From Phoenix dactylifera (Eukaryota; Streptophyta; Magnoliopsida; Arecales; Arecaceae): 64,000 nt of DNA. Shown here piece after piece: positions 4,648 to 31,494 of this stretch (position 1 is the first letter of the stretch; each line of letters starts with the position of its first letter). The stretch covers positions 21,197,045 to 21,261,044 of the forward strand of contig NC_052399.1 in NCBI RefSeq assembly GCF_009389715.1, given 5' to 3'. The position numbers and the translations under genes were made by a program. The notes below the pieces were generated by a model, which was given only the letters and a program-made list of their open reading frames with translations, was not told the DNA's origin and did no database searches.

Positions 4648-5139
4648 CTTTGCCGTGGGGGTTTTCGTTGGAATGGGAAAGAGAGGAAGAAGGGCGACGT
4701 TCGAGGGCTCTCGGCGCGGAGGGTTTGGGGTTCGGATCCTCCGGTGCATATCTTTTACGCCACAGAACAGGATACAGCTCTTGATTGCTGCCACGTTTTC
4801 GGATTCTGAAGATGGAAGGCTATCAAATAAAATACAATAAATCATATTGAGTTACATGCCATATATGATGTATTGCTCTTCGATGTTTAATAGCCATCCG
4901 TTTATGCAATCGAATGGTAAGGCGGTTATTCAAGAATGTACAGCTCTTTATATCATACCGCAGCGAATTCGGAGTCATGTCAAAGTTCAGAATTATAGCT
5001 TTTAGTTTCATCCTTGCTCTTATGTGGGATTAGTCTTGGTATATGGTCTCACTAGTGCAAAATTATTACAAAATATACTAGCACGTAACTCAACAAGTAA
5101 TAGCCTTAAGTTCACGCAAGGCTTGCATATCTAATTTTC

Positions 5140-5267
<128 letters not shown>

Positions 5268-5629
5268 TTACGTGCTATATATGATGTATTACTCTTAGAT
5301 GTTTGATGGCCATCTGTTTATGCAATCAAATAATATGGTGGCTATTTAAAAATGTACAACTCTTTATATCAAACCGTAGGGGATCCTGGGTCAACCATTG
5401 AAGCTAATTTGCATAATATAAAAGGAAAATAGAGTATTAGGGTGTTATCTTCTTTGACTCATGTCAAAGTTCAGAATTATAGTTTTTAGTTTCATCCTTG
5501 CTCTTATGTGGGATTGGTCTTGGTATATGATCTCACTAGTTCAAAATTATTATAAAATATACTTGCACGTAACTCAACAAGTAATAGCCTTAAGTTCACA
5601 CAAGACTTGCATACCTAATTTTCGGCTCT

Positions 5630-5736
<107 letters not shown>

Positions 5737-6386
5737 TTATGTGCTATATATGATGTATTGCGCTTAGATGTTTGATAGCCATCCGTTTATGCAATCGAAT
5801 GATATGGCGGTTATTTAAGAATGTACAGCTCTTTATATCAGACTGTAAAGGATCTCGAGTCAACCACTGAACCTAATTTGAATGATATGAAAAGAAAATA
5901 GAGTACTAGGGTGTTATCTTCCCTAACGTATGCATGTCAAAGTTCAGAATCACAGTTTTCAGTTTCATCCTTGCACTTATGTGGGATTAGTCTTGGTATA
6001 TCATCTCATTAGTTCATAATTATTACAAAGTATATTTGCAAGCCTTGTGTGAACTTAAAGGCTTTTACTTGTTGCTTCTTGCTCTCTTGCATTCTCTTTA
6101 TACCACCTTTCTTGTTCTCCTTTCGTCTTGTTACAATATTATGAACAGTCCTAATTTTTATACAATATTATAGCAACCAGCATTTCACTACATTACACAA
6201 CGCGCGCGCGCGCAGGATTTTGGAGGGGAAGGGTATAACGAGAGCTTGTTAATAACTTTGAATTTTAGTTGATAATTAATATGGATATATTTGGAGATAC
6301 GAAAGAAGACCTTATGGCTCTAGATTTAGTTTATCCTTAGTATTTATTACATGTATGGCAGACAAAATTATGTATTATATATATAA

Positions 6387-23048: not shown

Positions 23049-23059
23049 GTCCCATATCG
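23049..23059 (+). promoter_or_regulatory. USE (upstream sequence element) of the U1 gene
   Basis: GTCCCATATCG matches the plant snRNA upstream sequence element RTCCCACATCG with one change (C to T at the seventh base). It lies about 75 bp upstream of the U1 5' end, the known position for plant snRNA genes. Confidence 0.88.
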
Positions 23060-23091: not shown

Positions 23092-23097
23092 TATAAG
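23092..23097 (+). promoter_or_regulatory. TATA box of the U1 gene
   Basis: TATAAG begins 32 bp upstream of the U1 5' end and 32 nt after the end of the USE. In plants a USE-TATA gap of about 33-34 nt specifies RNA polymerase II and a gap about one helical turn shorter specifies polymerase III, so this gene is predicted to be Pol II transcribed, as expected for U1. Confidence 0.85.
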
Positions 23098-23123
23098 ATC
23101 AGATGGCTGTGTGACAAGAGGTC

Positions 23124-23285
23124 ATACTTACCTGGACGGGGTCGATGGGTGATCAAGAAGGCCCATGGCCTGGAGCAGCGGCCCTCATTGCACTTAGAGG
23201 GAGCGCTGTTCTACCATCTCCCCAAGTGGGAGAGTGGACGTCATAATTTGTGCAAGAGGGGGTACGCGTTCGCGCGGCCCCTGCC
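23124..23285 (+). ncRNA. U1: U1 spliceosomal snRNA
   Basis: The transcript begins with ATACTTACCTG, the invariant sequence that pairs with 5' splice sites. Stem-loop I follows with the plant loop GATCAAGAAG (the U1-70K site). Stem-loop II carries the U1A-type loop ATTGCACTT at about 23187-23195. Stem-loop III is CTCCCCAAGTGGGAG, about 23217-23231. An Sm-like site AATTTGTG lies near 23244-23251. Terminal stem-loop IV is a GGGG...GCGTTCGCGC...CCCC hairpin ending near 23285. The total of about 160 nt suits plant U1. A loose 3'-box-like CA...TTTTAAA follows. USE and TATA are correctly spaced, so the copy looks functional. I cannot exclude a mildly diverged variant because plant U1 genes are multicopy and often include variants. 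Confidence 0.93.
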
Positions 23286-24577: not shown

Positions 24578-27500
24578 TCATTTGTACACTTCTGGTCTAA
24601 GGACACCAACATAAGGCAGGTTTCTGTAAAGTTCATCATAATCCATGCCATAGCCAACGACAAAATAATCTGGGCACTGCAAGAGGAAAGACAAGGAGAA
24701 TCCATCATTTTCAGGAAAATTCAAATTAAGATGAGCATTAAAGTGAAACCTTAGAAAAGTAGTAGTTTTTTTTCTTTTTGGTAAGGGAAAAGTAGTAGTA
24801 TTTGCAAGCTATGCATGCAAGTAAACATAGAAAAAATTTGGCAGATGCATATAGCAACTTCTTACCTCAAAACCTCGATAAAATTTTCCCTCTCCCACTA
24901 GCTTAAAATGAACTTGCCTTCTTGCAGGTTTATCCAGCAAAGTGCAAACAGATACAGAAGATGCTCCTTTTGTTTCCAGGTGTGAAATAAGAGAGGATAG
25001 GGTATTTCCTGTGTCTACAATGTCCTCAACCTACAAAAACAAATATTAATTATACAGCAAACCAAGTCATTAAAGCACTTGTTATCTGATCAGGGAAAAG
25101 GAAAATCATGGTATAATAGATAAATAAAATAACCACCTCAGAGTTACGATGGTATGCACATGGCATGAGTGCAACTGCCAATGGCATAATGGAATTAATA
25201 GGATAGATATATAAAAATTTAAAAAATTTAAAATTCTTGAAGGATGGAAACAGCTGCTACAAAAAATATTCAATTTGTCTAACAGCCAAATTTTACCCAT
25301 CATGGTATCATAAAAAATGTTGGCTGCTTCAAATTTCAAATTACCCGATCAAGGACAATAACCACATGACAAGTATTTTTACCGTTGGAAAATTCTCAGC
25401 TTATCTATCAGTTTAGCAGGCTAGAAAATCATGACAGCATGTAACCACTTGTTCAATGCTAGCACACATTTAGCATCTGTTAAGGAAATAAAGGCTATTT
25501 CTGTCACCCATCTTGAATACAACAAACTAATTGCCAAAGCTTTGAAACTTAATTTTTATAATGTGCAGTTAATCTGAACTTAAGGATGAAGCAATAGAAG
25601 TAGTTGTCACTTAAAGTAAGGCATCTTTTAACATCACTATGAAAAATTCTAATTTCTCTATGCAAGTTTTCCTAAGCAATAATATCAATTAACTAAACAA
25701 TAGACACCTCCATCAAATTGCTACGGCAAACTCAAGTATTCATTTTGTATTCAATACTGATGTGGGGTCGGAACCCCGACACCAGCCCGCACACCGGACG
25801 AGCAGGGAAAGCATCCGCGTCCTCCCCGAGGTATTGTCCGCTCTGGGATTGCCGCTTCGGGTCTGCGGGAGGTCGCCCAGGGCCGTGGCCCAATGACAGT
25901 CCCGAGCCCTGCCGGCGCGGGGGTCCGCGGAGGTACTACCCCTACCCTTACGGTTTTGTCCTACAAAAGGGCCCTCGGTGAGAAGAGGTGTTTGCACCCC
26001 CATTTAAGGCACAGACCTTTTCGCTGATTATCCGATGTGGGACTAAACTGGGAACCCCATCCCACAACACAGCCCCCCGAGCGGGAAGGTCTGTGCGTGG
26101 CCGGGGCCCTCCTTCTAGCGCCATCTGATGTGGGGTCGGAACCCCGACACCAGCCCGCACACCGGACGAGCAGGGAAAGCATCCGCGTCCTCCCCGAGGT
26201 ATTGTCCGCTCTGGGATTGCCGCTTCGGGTCTGCGGGAGGTCGCCCAGGGCCGTGGCCCAATGACAGTCCCGAGCCCTGCCAGCGCGGGGGTCCGCGGAG
26301 GTACTACCCCTACCCTCACGGTTTTGTCCTACAAAAGGGCCCTCGGTGAGAAGAGGTGTTTGCACCCCCCATTTAAGGCACAGACCTTTCCGCTGATTAT
26401 CCGATGTGGGACTAAACTGGGAACCCCATCCCACAACAAATACCATCCTATTACTCTAAAATTAGAACAATTTTATTGATTGAATCATTCTGTCGATTAG
26501 CACAATGAAATCGTCCTTTTTTTTCCAGAAAGCATTTTAACCTTTGACTACTCTTTGATAGTTAGGTAGGTGATCTACTTCTTCCACTCAGTTAGGTCCT
26601 ACCTGAAATCAGTATGGTGACATACAAGAATTGTTTCTTTGATGAAACTCAAATGTACAAACTTTACTTCCATATCATTTGATTTTCTCCTTTCTTATAT
26701 GAAGGAATAATTGAATTAGATTTACTTCCATATCCTTTGATGTTCTCCTTTCTTGGATGAAGGAATAATTGAATTAGATTTTTGTGCTTGCAGGACCATC
26801 TAGAGAAAAATTGGAGTACATCTTCAAGGAACATAATTAACCATTAATTACACCATTATTGTGCACGTGATATGAACATGTTTTTCATGGAAAAAAGGGG
26901 AGAGAGAGTGACGGAAGAAGAAAAGGAGTTATTGTGCATGGAAGCCCTCCCTCTCACTCTCTTAAGCTACATAGGCCCATGAGGTATTTATTTTTTTCTA
27001 AGATAAGACCTCCACCCATAGGAATTATATAGGGGCTAGACTTTTGGAGTCCATCTTCGCATGATCAACTCTGGGAATTTCTATAATATATATAATGTAG
27101 TATATAATATATAATATATGGTATATGATATAATAGATAGAAAGATAGAGAGATAAATTGAAATAAGCGAACAATCTCAGTACCACCACTCTTCTTTGTA
27201 TAAAGAAATGCAACTCCAATGATGTGGTTTGGCCTCAACAACATCAATATAGGATTTGATAATTATACCACCACAAGCAAGGCCTTCATCTCAGCCAAGA
27301 TCTTGGTTTATTCCAGTATCAAGAACTCCCCAATACAAATATACAAAAATATTGGTCAATATAAATTGATAAAATCTTAGATATCTGCAAATATTTTCCA
27401 ATCATTTCTTTACTTCCTTAAATAATTTTTTAAGCTACTAACTTTTGTAATCAATGTTCAGGTGTAGATGGTAATCTTGGATTTATCCTGTTGGCTAGGA

Positions 27501-28545
27501 TTTAGATATCTTGGTCCTAAAATATTTGAAAAACCTCAATTGCCTATTTTCCCACTTGTTGTTATAGTCTCGGACAAAAACCAGATCTTGGCTCATCTTG
27601 TCTCGGTAATATATGGGGATTTGAAAACGATTTAAGACCTAGATCATGAACCTATGAGCTGATAATTAACAAACTCACCTACCGTATACAAACCCGAACG
27701 AATTCACAGAATTTAATGATGCTCCAGCCATCATAAACTTGCATTTCAGCCCAACAAGATAAAGTGATCGGGCATGTTTTATGATTTTTTGCAACACAGA
27801 GTTTTAAAACTTTGCATCTGAACTCGTGAAAATCCCTTACTCTGATTGATCCATTGATCCTCAATCAGCTCCATAACCAGCTATCCTCAATCATGTCTTT
27901 CTTTCATCCCAAAAAGGGAATCCTCCCTTCTATCTACCTGGATAGTCTTTGTATCTTGAAGTTCCTACACTAACCCAGTATTAATTCCTGCTCTTTCCTC
28001 TATACCGTGTGTTTTCCAAGTATTAATTAGAGATATACTATGACAATTTCAAACTTGTGGCAGTGCACCTGCTAAAACACGGATAAATTGTTCATCTAGC
28101 AGTTCTATAATTGAAAGGAGCTACCTTTCTGGTTCTGTAAGTAAAGTAGTCATATTTTGTTGATCATTCATTGATATGATGAACTGATGACATCAAGCGA
28201 AACAGAACAAGAAAGACTCCAGGGATCTACACCAAGGGATCATACCAAAATCACGTGTTTGCCGCCGATATCGATCTTGAGGTCGCTGGAGATCCTGGGA
28301 ACGCCACTGGACTCCGTCCCCGACCCATACGACTCGGCCCGGATGAAGTCGACAGCGACGGGCAAAGTAATCTTCCTCACGATGTCGGCGATGAAGAGGA
28401 AGGCCCCCGTGGCGACCCCGACGACGACTACAGGGACCGGGGACCCCCTGAAGTCGTCGGAGATCTGCGAGGCGAGCTCGGCGACGCGGCCGGAAATCTC
28501 CTCCTCCGTCCACAGGACCCGCTCGATATTGGCATCGGAACCCAT
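24578..28545 (-). CDS. HGPT: Hypoxanthine-guanine phosphoribosyltransferase
   Basis: Three exons: 28545-28246 (100 codons), 25030-24866 (55 codons) and 24676-24578 (32 codons plus TGA), all phase 0 and GT/AG. The protein has 187 residues, close to my recollection of about 188 for the plant enzyme. It salvages hypoxanthine and guanine to IMP and GMP using PRPP. Key motifs are the SYGSG loop ([11 protein letters not shown], about 71-81) that closes over the active site, the PRPP-binding signature [15 protein letters not shown] (about 97-111, split by intron 1 between VIL and VED), the purine-contact region ending KFYRGFE, and [20 protein letters not shown], with the Asp that binds the purine pocket. 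There is no obvious targeting peptide, so it is probably cytosolic. Intron 1 is 3.2 kb and hosts a TRIM element and tandem repeats. Confidence 0.94.
25758..26438 (-). mobile_element. TRIM (miniature LTR retroelement), looks whole, in HGPRT intron 1
   Basis: Two LTRs of about 312 bp (25758-26069 and 26126-26438) flank a 56-bp interior. The element begins TG and ends CA and sits between perfect 5-bp target duplications AATAC (25753-25757 and 26439-26443). Read on the minus strand, a TGGCGCTAGAAGGAGGGC primer-binding-site-like sequence lies 2 nt inside the 5' LTR, and a G-rich polypurine-like tract precedes the 3' LTR. It has no coding capacity, as is normal for TRIMs. The LTRs differ at about three bases plus one indel (about 1 percent), so insertion is recent, probably under one million years at grass-like rates and older at slower rates. 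It is GC-rich and stands out sharply from the AT-rich intron. The long open frames here are by-products of the repeat. Confidence 0.9.
26032..26044 (-). promoter_or_regulatory. USE-like motif in TRIM LTR
   Basis: The minus strand reads AGTCCCACATCGG, a full match to the plant snRNA upstream sequence element RTCCCACATCG. A TATA-like TTAAAT (26007-26002) starts 25 nt after it. The same motif recurs in the other LTR of this element (about 26400-26412). Function is inferred only from the match. Confidence 0.6.
26665..26780. repeat. 58-bp tandem duplication in HGPRT intron 1
   Basis: Two copies with a 58-bp period start at 26665 and 26723. They share TACTTCCATATC, TTTGAT, TTCTCCTTTCTT and GAAGGAATAATTGAATTAGA. 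Confidence 0.9.
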
Positions 28546-30139
28546 GGGACCGAGCGAGGGACGGCAGCGGAAGGCGGAAGCCTAGAATCTCTAGGGCTTA
28601 TCATTTTGAAATCCCGATGCGCGACCACCGCTGAATAGGAAACAACGAAGGGGAAAAAATTCAAGGCGACGAATCCGGAGGAATGTGGGAAAAGGAAAGT
28701 GGGTTGCCGTCAAATCGTGATTCCATAAACGAAAAGGATGTATAAAAAAATAATAATCTATTAATAAAAATATACCTACACGCTATCCAAGTTTCCATAC
28801 AGAGAGAGTGCACGTGAGAGTTGCACGTGCAAATACATATACGAGAGAGGATGTAGGGAAAGGAAAATATGAAAAATATAATTGATTATATTAAAGAAAT
28901 TTGCTAAATTATTGAGTAATAACTTATTATTTGATCCATAATATATAATGTTTGGGCAGTGATTGAGGATGTGAACTTTGAAGTTGGTGCAGAATTAAAT
29001 GTTGTGGTGGCTGAGTTTCAAAATTATTGGATTTCTGATAGTGATGCAGCTGGTTGTGCTCATGCGATCGCAGTGTGAGCAGCCATTGTACCAAAAAAAT
29101 AAAATTATTAAAATTTTTGAAAAAGAATGGTGGTGCTATGAATAATTTGAAAATTGACAAAGTGCTACTTGTAAATGCATGTAAAACTAATGCACTCTAT
29201 TTGAAATTATTAGCACGTGATCTCCCTCTAGACTAAAATTAATAATGTTGAGCATTCTTTCATTCAAATCTAGTAGAAGGACACGATGTTTATGGGACTT
29301 GTAGTCATTGGTAGGGCAAGAACGGATGCTAATGTCTAAGATGGTTGAACAAATGCAATGATAAGTATGCAGCCATTTATATGAGTGCACTAGCACTCTT
29401 ATTAAAAAAACAATATTTGAAATGGAGAAAATAACAAATGAATAAACATGGAAGATATTATAAAGATAAATGGGTAAGATATAATGAGTAGTTTATAATA
29501 TACAACAATCAATATAACAAGATTAAAACCTATTATGTTAGATGATCATGAATAAGAATACCAAGAGTCCTAGATGAAGGCATAAAGAGCTCTTGGAAGA
29601 GACCTTGCCAACCTTGAAATACTCTTGACATGGTCATTGGTTTGTCTGTCACTTCCCCGAAATTTATACAAGATATTGCTCTGGACCTGCAATGGCTACA
29701 TGATTCAATTTAAAAAGATTTGCTTTGAGTCTCGTAATCAAATCTGAATGTTATAGTTACTTATCTCATTAAAATGGTTAACGGACATGGATACTCCGGT
29801 TAGGGCTGAAATAAGATTAGATACTAGTATATCTATATCCATATTTATTTTATTTGATGGATATGGATACTTCGGTTAGGGCTGAAACAAGATTGGATAC
29901 CAATATATTTATATCCATATTTATTTTATTTAATGGATATGGATATTTATATGGATGTTAGTTGGATGAAAAAATTTGTATCTATATTTGTTTTAAGCAA
30001 TTATAAATACATATTGGATCATAGAAGTACGGATATAAATACGAATATCAATTGGATAATTAAATTTCATGAGCACAAAATCAAAGATAATTAGTTATTT
30101 ATTTTTTCAAAAATTTATGAGTGCTATATAAATACATAT
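28546..30139. other. Intergenic spacer with a 77-bp tandem repeat
   Basis: Non-coding, AT-rich sequence upstream of HGPRT (transcribed leftward). It contains a GGATATGGATAC tandem repeat at 29782-29945 and no recognisable gene. Confidence 0.5.
29782..29945. repeat. 77-bp tandem repeat (two copies plus a partial)
   Basis: Units start at 29782 and 29859, and a partial third starts at 29935. They share GGTTAGGGCTGAAA and TATATCCATATTTATTTTAT. Confidence 0.9.
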
Positions 30140-30231
30140 ATCCCTAGAGCAGAGCTCAGAGTTATTTGAAAAGGCCTTACTTATGCGAGGCTCGTCTTAG
30201 GTGTAGATAGTATCCACCTTGAAGGAGCCTC

Positions 30232-30670
30232 TGTAACGACCTAGGATCTCACCCAAAATGGCTAGCCGGAAGTTATTATTTGAGTTCCTTGATCTTGTAT
30301 AAGTACCCAAGATTTACTCAGCGAATAACTGATGTGGGACTAAACACACGCTCGCACGGATTCTCACATACTCTCCCCGTTCAAGCCCTGACGTCCTCGT
30401 CAGGCTAAGGGTTCAAATATATTCAAATCTAATCACAAACACCATGATTGGTCCGTGGTCAGCCCCAATGGATCCGTACTGCAGTGTCTCCTAGTCCACA
30501 TAGGTTATAGGCTGGGTCCGCTCTGATACCATTTGTAACGACCCAAGATCTCACCCAAAATGGCTAGCCGAAAGTTATTATTTGGGTTCCTTGATCCTGT
30601 ATAAGTACCCAAGATTTACCCAGCGAATAACCGATGTGGGACTAAATACATGCCCGCACGGGTTCTCACA
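30232..30670 (-). mobile_element. TRIM (439 bp), looks whole, inserted in a LINE remnant
   Basis: LTRs of exactly 137 bp each (30232-30368 and 30534-30670) flank a 165-bp interior. The element runs TG...CA and is bracketed by the perfect 5-bp duplication GCCTC (30227-30231 and 30671-30675). On the minus strand the interior begins, 2 nt after the LTR, with TGGTATCAGAGC, the classic primer-binding site for initiator methionyl-tRNA, and ends with a purine-rich tract (ACGGGGAGAGTA). It has no coding capacity, as expected of TRIMs. The LTRs differ at about 11 of 137 positions (8 percent), so it is clearly older than the TRIM at 25758. Confidence 0.92.
30630..30643 (-). promoter_or_regulatory. USE-like motif in the second TRIM LTR
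   Basis: The minus strand reads AGTCCCACATCGG (30643-30631), a full match to the snRNA USE consensus. In the other LTR (30341-30330) the final base has changed. A TATA-like TTATACA starts 27 nt downstream in that LTR (30302) and is preserved in both. Confidence 0.6.
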
Positions 30671-31494
30671 GCCTCTACTACAATGATCGAGTAGATCCGG
30701 GGCCAGCACAAATCTGACGATGGGCACCTGCTGCTATAGAACGTCCATAGGCTAACGAGGATTTGTGGCGCTTTCCAAACTACTTATGTTTACCAGAAGG
30801 TGAGCAGAACTGTCAACTTAGTTGGCTCCTCGTTACTTAGCATTCGGGTGGAGTCCTCTGGGGGACCCATGGGCTGCCTCTACTCCTCTACCACAACTTT
30901 TTTTTTTCTTTTTTTTTTTTATAGTACTCATAGATCAGTATAATCCACCGTTCTACCAAAAAAATAGAAAAGTAAAATAATATTTCTTACCAAATCTATT
31001 CCCTAGCCAAAGGGGGTTAGATTTTATTTATTTATTTTGACAGATACGATTCTCTACTATAAAATAATATTTCTTACAAAATCTATTCCAGCCAAAGGGG
31101 GTTAAATATATAATATGGATTATTATTATATTGTTATTTTTGGCGAGATATCGTCAGATATTTCAACGGTCAAAGGTCCGAAGTTGAATTTCGGCTCCCC
31201 TAACATGGTGAGCTTACCTCCCAACGGCGGTCCGGGTGCTGGCTCGGGCGTCCCTGCCAACCCTGCGGAAGCGGTGTGGATATAAATATCACCTGGCGGT
31301 GACAGCAAAACGGAGAGAAACCGCCGACGGAATTCACCCCAAAACCATGACCTATGACTTTTGCCCATCAGTTCACACGTGTTCCCAGTCTCAACCGTCA
31401 CGATAAAGTCCGTAGATTTAACGCCACGACGTCAGACCGCACGTGCGAATACCACATCACTCTCTGAGGATCCCAGTCCCCGTTGTCCTCCGCC

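Follow-up and report, generated by a model that had tools for sequence, protein, structure and literature searches.

A candidate small nuclear RNA-type promoter core in the long terminal repeats of date palm TRIM retrotransposons

The window analyzed here, a 64,000-nucleotide (nt) stretch of the date palm (Phoenix dactylifera) genome (contig NC_052399.1, positions 21,197,045 to 21,261,044), harbors two terminal-repeat retrotransposons in miniature (TRIMs), E1 and E2, and a U1 small nuclear RNA (snRNA) gene. The long terminal repeats (LTRs) of both TRIMs contain the upstream sequence element (USE) of plant snRNA genes, RTCCCACATCG, followed at a short distance by a TATA-like word. We lean towards the view that TRIM LTRs of this kind carry an snRNA-type (USE plus TATA) promoter core, which would recruit RNA polymerase III (Pol III) by the plant spacing rule, as the overall explanation of this arrangement.

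Both E1 and E2 are complete, minus-sense TRIMs, with the orientation set by the primer binding site (PBS) and the polypurine tract (PPT), which were assigned by eye. Each features two LTRs with TG...CA ends, a PBS, a PPT, and a 5-bp target-site duplication (TSD), and each remains below about 1-1.5 kb (Table 1). With internal parts of 56 bp and 165 bp, neither codes for a retrotransposon protein. The PBS of E2, TGGTATCAGAGC, is one that we take to be of the initiator-Met tRNA type. The original prediction had the element coordinates correct, and its TATA-like boxes were recovered at 25 nt (E1) and 27 nt (E2) past the USE. It also described the LTRs as different in length, as they are (313/312 bp in E1 versus 137/137 bp in E2), and as carrying a full match to RTCCCACATCG in both TRIMs; the perfect motif, GTCCCACATCG, is present in three of the four LTRs, and the 3' LTR of E2 has one mismatch (GTCCCACATCA). 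The E1 box, TTAAAT, is weak, and some E1 relatives feature TTATAATG or ATATAATG at the equivalent place.

The genome's own snRNA genes provide rulers against which the USE-TATA distance can be read. In plant U6 and U3 promoters of type 3, the USE RTCCCACATCG is combined with a TATA box that lies one helical turn closer than in the snRNA genes transcribed by RNA polymerase II (Pol II) (PMC9845283; here and below, citations refer to parts of the papers). For U6, a Pol III gene, 30 of 48 genome matches were fetched, and the nine with a USE at two mismatches or fewer were used; set aside were L121 (high-scoring, no USE), L123 and L124 (three mismatches, other distance), and 18 lower-scoring matches. 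The gene starts 53-54 nt past the end of the USE in all nine, and the best TATA-like word is found at 22, 22, 22, 24, 24, 26, and 28 nt in seven; the other two, L113 and L114, were kept and have no clear word in range. For the Pol II genes, we used all seven U1 matches fetched from a total of 22, the window's own U1, and three of the six U2 matches fetched from a total of 29, the other three being without a USE. In 10 of these 11 U1/U2 genes, the gene starts 64-66 nt past the USE and the TATA-like word is at 31-34 nt; the exception, L147, has its gene start at 72 nt and its TATA-like word at 40 nt. The spacing rule stated in the original prediction (Pol III closer, Pol II farther) was measured directly in this genome, at 22-28 nt for U6 versus 31-34 nt for U1/U2. 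The monocot-specific promoter (MSP) element, RGCCCR in either orientation, was dropped as a discriminator: only 4 of 20 of the genome's own snRNA genes have it and 16 of 20 do not, so its absence from the TRIMs, which were viewed by eye only, would say little.

The motif itself is more frequent than expected by chance. At two mismatches or fewer, the window has 36 sites; shuffled sequence averages 14.8, and none of 100 shuffles attains 36. Across the whole genome (773 Mb, 2391 contigs), there are 6252 exact copies of RTCCCACATCG versus 626 of the reversed pattern, a 10-fold enrichment, and 616 copies versus 21 of the reversed control are followed by TATAWA 15-45 nt downstream. To see what carries these sites, we read 98 of the first 100 listed genome matches, which span 0.44 to 9.29 Mb of one contig; all family assignments below are judged from this one stretch of one genome. 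The 98 sites comprise 42 of family A (E2 type), 22 of family B (E1 type and diverged subfamilies), 23 of family C, four each of repeats F and D, two of repeat E, and one in L112. Thus, 87 of 98 lie in three multi-copy TRIM-type families. About 15 old family A copies near snRNA matches were excluded from the counts; most of them have a mutated USE, in keeping with copies that are no longer active. Family C is a third TRIM-type repeat. Its LTR measures about 243 bp and has typical LTR ends, and its internal part, about 46 bp long, starts with TTTGGTAT and has a PBS-like GGTAT. It forms head-to-tail tandem arrays with a 289-bp unit (the whole of L078, also L079 and L045). Two solo LTRs (L071 and L091) are flanked by an exact 5-bp TSD, while no exact TSD was seen at L064 and L111.

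TATA-like words were scored with our own weights, identically for snRNA genes and TRIM sites. The best word lies 22-28 nt past the USE in 34 of 42 sites of family A, 22 of 22 of family B, and 22 of 23 of family C (78/87 overall), while shuffles place it there in about 20% of cases for each family. The U1/U2-type distance of 31-34 nt occurs at a single site (1/87). Within the window, the distance is 24-25 nt in E1 and 27-28 nt in E2, so that both fall in the U6-type range and E2 sits at its edge. Compared with the U1/U2 genes, TRIMs of families B and C have their TATA-like word about one helical turn nearer to the USE; in family A, the shift is about half a turn. Some of these words are weak (CTTAAAT, CATATGA). 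The match also extends beyond the 11-mer. Immediately 5' of the USE stands the tetranucleotide TTTA in 7/7 fetched U1, 2/3 U2, and 4/9 U6 genes, and AATA in the other five U6 genes, all of which lie within about 10 kb on one contig; in the TRIMs, this tetranucleotide is TTTA in 38/42 of family A, TTTA or CTTA in 21/22 of family B, and AATA in 22/23 of family C. Given these shared flanks, most TRIMs here carry an extended form of the genome's snRNA USE. The proposal of an snRNA-style, possibly Pol III-like promoter in the original prediction therefore stands as far as the motif, its flank, and the U6 distance (78/87) are concerned, while the action of Pol III and SNAPc is a predicted step and the mode of family A, at 28 nt, lies at the edge of the U6 range.

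A chance match of an 11-mer in a few repeats is very improbable as an explanation. One repeat family could multiply a single chance match, but the USE plus a TATA-like word at 22-28 nt is carried by families A, B, and C as well as by repeat types E and F, with only D (word at 31 nt) departing from it. Five of six types, at a chance of about 0.2 each and taken as independent, correspond to p of about 0.002. We reject this explanation on the excess of sites in the window and on both genome-wide comparisons with the reversed pattern. As an external test, viral contigs yielded 44 USE plus TATA matches with gaps spread over 18-39 nt, 10 of them at 22-28 nt, and no TRIM context was noticed; given the spread of gaps and the lack of such context, these matches represent background only.

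Several of the rarer repeats merit a brief description. In F (L083, L088, L089, and L092), the USE and TATA-like word face a reversed PBS-like GCTCTGATACCA about 100 nt downstream, antisense to the element, and no LTR pair was found within 2 kb. Repeat D (L056, L057, L069, and L070) has a perfect USE and no convincing TATA-like box, the best word being CAAAAAG at 31 nt in L056. A USE with TTTATATA is found in a possible DNA transposon, a repeat in which palindromes of the GCGTCGCTAA type abound (L051:1501, L082:1023), and several more copies of this palindromic repeat appear among the genome-wide USE plus TATAWA matches.

Within family B, conservation was approached through a separate block, GGNCAAAACCGTGAGG, that has 1188 matches genome-wide and 0 in the control. 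Twenty-one matches were sampled on contig C1 below 9.77 Mb, where all perfect USEs are listed; we disregarded three of these matches, which represent a second block inside L076 LTRs. Among the 18 remaining modules, 13 have a perfect USE that starts 81-84 nt upstream of the block, three have one mismatch, one (L106) is without a USE, and one (at 8245130) has no perfect USE listed. Of 19 aligned rows, a count that includes the three second blocks and omits L106, 13 retain an intact USE, versus 3 for the median 11-mer window. Conservation across 18 diverged rows is highest, besides the USE, in CAAAACCGTG (0.95), the TATA block TTAAATGG (0.92), and CCTTTTGT (0.82), relative to a mean of 0.65. Together with the enrichment and the spacing, this pattern makes it likely that the USE-TATA pair is a conserved, functional promoter core. 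In one subfamily of B (the L076 LTRs), the block GGACAAAACCGTGAGG occurs twice, 160 bp apart.

Shared descent could in principle account for the same observations. Within each TRIM family, common ancestry is plain. Descent alone would go further and hold that all families stem from one old LTR, that the core was kept for some other reason (e.g., another factor), and that its likeness to the USE is coincidental. Consistent with an old core, alignment to the E1 LTR is confined to roughly its first 126 nt in 12 of 17 B-type loci, and families B and C show a suggestive, weak likeness 3' of the USE around CGGACAATA (for three members of B, the alignment score is attained by 17, 14, and 41 of 300 shuffles). 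Families A and C are weakly alike (37 of 300). Between A and B, however, alignment 3' of the USE is no better than that of shuffled sequence, with 271 of 300 shuffles reaching the score for E2 against E1 and 258 and 279 for two other members of B; the original description of the E1 and E2 LTRs as otherwise unrelated is upheld by this comparison. The shuffle-tested alignments thus leave room for an old core that B and C may share and give no sign of one for A and B, such that the shared LTR core raised in the original prediction as the main alternative applies within families, suggestively to B and C, and not detectably to A and B. Coincidence is also at odds with the similarity to genuine USEs in the flanking bases and with the gene-like distance of the TATA-like word, and we consider descent alone unlikely. 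Descent and function do not exclude each other.

With Pol III, the proposed mechanism would run as follows. SNAPc would bind the USE in the TRIM LTR, and the USE with its closer TATA box would recruit Pol III by the plant spacing rule, with transcription predicted to start about 54 nt past the USE as in the genome's U6 genes. Exactly one TTTT (T4) is present per LTR in E1, E2, and a three-unit stretch of the family C array, and none occurs elsewhere in sense orientation. It lies 71 nt past the USE in E2, 65 nt in E1, and 60 nt in C, or 17, 11, and 6 nt past the U6-like start, and 77 of the 87 TRIM-type sites have a T4 at 54-76 nt past the USE. To yield a full-length transcript, Pol III would need to read through this weak T4 in the 5' LTR, since a TTTT 6-17 nt past the start is a possible early stop, and the T4 of the 3' LTR would then serve as the stop. 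The two ends of the resulting RNA would share a short repeat, which would suffice for the first strand transfer, similar to what is described for Cassandra. Reverse transcription and integration would be carried out by the enzymes of an autonomous LTR element, as is generally held for TRIMs. By its spacing, Pol III is the likeliest enzyme of the TRIM core and quite possibly its main polymerase. We suggest more tentatively that a U6-type external Pol III promoter, placed in U3, is employed by several unrelated TRIM families of plants; the T4, as read-through and stop signal, would define a very short R.

The main rival to Pol III is Pol II. Under this alternative, the TATA box would direct Pol II transcription of TRIMs just as it does in ordinary LTRs; SNAPc or some other activator would occupy the USE but not bring in Pol III, and the T4 would be incidental. 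The spacing of family A, with a mode at 28 nt, is ambiguous between the polymerases, whereas B and C are U6-like and the best word is at the U1/U2 distance in only one of the 87 TRIM-type sites. AATAAT, a possible poly(A) signal, lies near the predicted start in many copies of A; in families B and C, no conserved block of this sequence was seen. Transcripts of 3.4-8.5 kb are too long for Pol III by usual views. Such are the sizes of putative autonomous partners that share the LTRs of some TRIMs (PMC4717578), and the TATA boxes of Cassandra-like TRIMs without 5S were taken by the authors as Pol II signals (PMC10853983). We searched for no such partners systematically; one candidate with B-type LTRs, 9.5 kb between two of them in L143, was rejected and read as a nested insertion, its insert having a Copia-type reverse transcriptase frame (RVT_2) flanked by its own repeat (a repeated reading frame). 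Overall, transcription by Pol II is conceivable, and we regard it as rather doubtful.

Other observations weigh against a Pol III-driven, snRNA-type core and temper our preference for it. The modal distance of family A, 28 nt (25/42 sites), is midway between the U6 and U1/U2 modes and at the edge of the U6 range. Among the first 100 genome-wide matches with a strict TATAWA, in which five places are counted twice, the gap is 22-28 nt in 81 and 32-33 nt in 7, and 28 nt by itself makes up 63. The T4 was rejected as proof of a terminator: in the same stretch, AAAA is as common as TTTT in B (16/22) and C (22/23), such that T4 is not special in these two families; in A, AAAA occurs in 1/42 copies. 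Runs of five or more T are present at 54-120 nt in 8/42 copies of A, and at least part of the Pol III would terminate at a TTTT in the 5' LTR. Likewise, T4 is a weak stop at the 3' end, as the nine U6 genes of this genome end in T-runs of 7-11. The conservation within family B is also open to bias: the 18 diverged rows were picked by a perfect USE, the B block itself was found in USE-bearing copies, a row lacking a USE was removed ahead of the 11-mer count, and copies within one family or subfamily are not independent. Moreover, the proposed model does not account for the conserved block CAAAACCGTG, and all of these data stem from one genome.

How non-coding TRIMs are transcribed and terminated was stated as an open question for SMART (PMC3281118). 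TRIMs with Pol III promoters are known, and those described have internal promoters of 5S or tRNA type (PMC10886601, PMC7215508). Cassandra, for example, contains a Pol III promoter within its LTR and also occurs in tandem arrays, as family C does in L078 (PMC7215508, PMC10886601), and the 18-bp repeat described at its RNA ends resembles the layout of the T4 model (PMC10886601); its promoter, however, is internal and 5S-derived (PMC7215508), whereas the motifs described here are of the external, upstream type. Helenus and Ajax ("TRIMp3", Kojima 2024) are likewise TRIMs proposed to have Pol III promoters from small RNA genes, although both promoters are internal, from tRNA and 5S, respectively (PMC10886601). 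That paper names 7SL as a possible further source and, in the text available, does not name snRNA promoters (PMC10886601). An embedded small RNA gene as in Cassandra was rejected here: Rfam identified no 5S or other small RNA sequence in E1 and E2 or in 20 further loci (11 with copies of A, B, or C), and an ARAGORN scan of the window under the bacterial code yielded no tRNA. Because no small RNA sequence was found, E1/E2-type elements are not TRIMp3 by that definition; they would work like TRIMp3 through another promoter type and would be a class of TRIM with an external (type 3) promoter, beside the internal promoters of Cassandra, Helenus, and Ajax.

Other systems offer partial likenesses. 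SMART (Gao et al. 2012), an LTR element of grasses that is likewise very small, has a TATA box in its LTR, and its authors found neither a polyadenylation nor a termination signal; a USE is not mentioned in the text available, and the comparison is by description rather than by sequence (PMC3281118). Plant U6 and U3 type 3 promoters drive small RNA genes that end in T-runs, not LTRs (PMC9845283). In trypanosomatids, the Pr77 retrotransposon promoter is associated with a protein complex that includes TBP and the SNAPc subunit SNAP50, but it belongs to non-LTR elements, uses Pol II, and has no plant-type USE, as far as the source describes it (PMC8190864). The main text of Gao et al. 2016, a study of 156 TRIM families, contains no words beginning TATA, promoter, or snRNA (PMC4717578). 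Among the open-access papers listed, represented mostly by titles and the beginnings of abstracts, we found no description of a USE or an snRNA-type promoter in TRIMs or other LTR elements of plants, a statement that leaves out two plant papers holding both TCCCACAT and LTR (PMC3443450, PMC3127826).

If correct, a shared snRNA-type promoter would provide a mechanism for the transcription of TRIMs; in its U6-type, Pol III form, it would be a novel mode of transcription for LTR retrotransposons. In the sampled stretch, transposons would then hold the majority of snRNA promoter motifs (87/98 sites). Because of this share, the TRIM copies could sequester SNAPc, give rise to new genes for non-coding RNAs, or confound the search for genes of snRNA type.

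Table 1. Features of the two TRIMs and the U1 snRNA gene in the window (positions count from the first letter of the window).
Feature	Position	Strand	Details	Basis
U1 snRNA gene	23124..23283	+	Pol II ruler; one of 22 genome U1 matches; 2.5 kb from E1	Rfam RF00003, 137.6 bits
USE of U1 gene	23049..23059	+	GTCCCATATCG, one mismatch; TATAAGA at 23092-23098, 32 nt past USE	
E1, TRIM of family B	25758..26438	-	681 bp; TSD AATAC (+ strand) at 25753-25757 / 26439-26443	
E1 5' LTR	26126..26438	-	313 bp	
E1 3' LTR	25758..26069	-	312 bp; 98.7% identity to E1 5' LTR	
E1 primer binding site	26108..26123	-	TGGCGCTAGAAGGAGG, two bases past 5' LTR	by position, no tRNA assigned
E1 polypurine tract	26070..26080	-	G-rich	by eye
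USE, E1 5' LTR	26402..26412	-	GTCCCACATCG, perfect	
USE, E1 3' LTR	26033..26043	-	GTCCCACATCG, perfect	
TATA-like word, E1 5' LTR	26371..26376	-	TTAAAT, starts 25 nt past USE	
TATA-like word, E1 3' LTR	26002..26007	-	TTAAAT, starts 25 nt past USE	
TTTT, E1 5' LTR	26333..26336	-	possible weak Pol III terminator	
TTTT, E1 3' LTR	25965..25968	-		
E2, TRIM of family A	30232..30670	-	439 bp; TSD GCCTC at 30227-30231 / 30671-30675	
E2 5' LTR	30534..30670	-	137 bp	
E2 3' LTR	30232..30368	-	137 bp; 92% identity to E2 5' LTR	
E2 primer binding site	30520..30531	-	TGGTATCAGAGC	sequence
E2 polypurine tract	30369..30382	-		by eye
USE, E2 5' LTR	30632..30642	-	GTCCCACATCG, perfect	
USE, E2 3' LTR	30330..30340	-	GTCCCACATCA, one mismatch	
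TATA-like word, E2 5' LTR	30599..30604	-	TTATAC, starts 27 nt past USE	
TATA-like word, E2 3' LTR	30297..30302	-	TTATAC, starts 27 nt past USE	
TTTT, E2 5' LTR	30557..30560	-		
TTTT, E2 3' LTR	30255..30258	-		

Finally, two further repeats were observed in the window. A tandem 76-bp duplication with 88% identity is located at 29778-29929, and the region at 4980-6000 harbors three related copies of a sequence with ATCCCACATAA on the minus strand, with CT and TA microsatellites between them.

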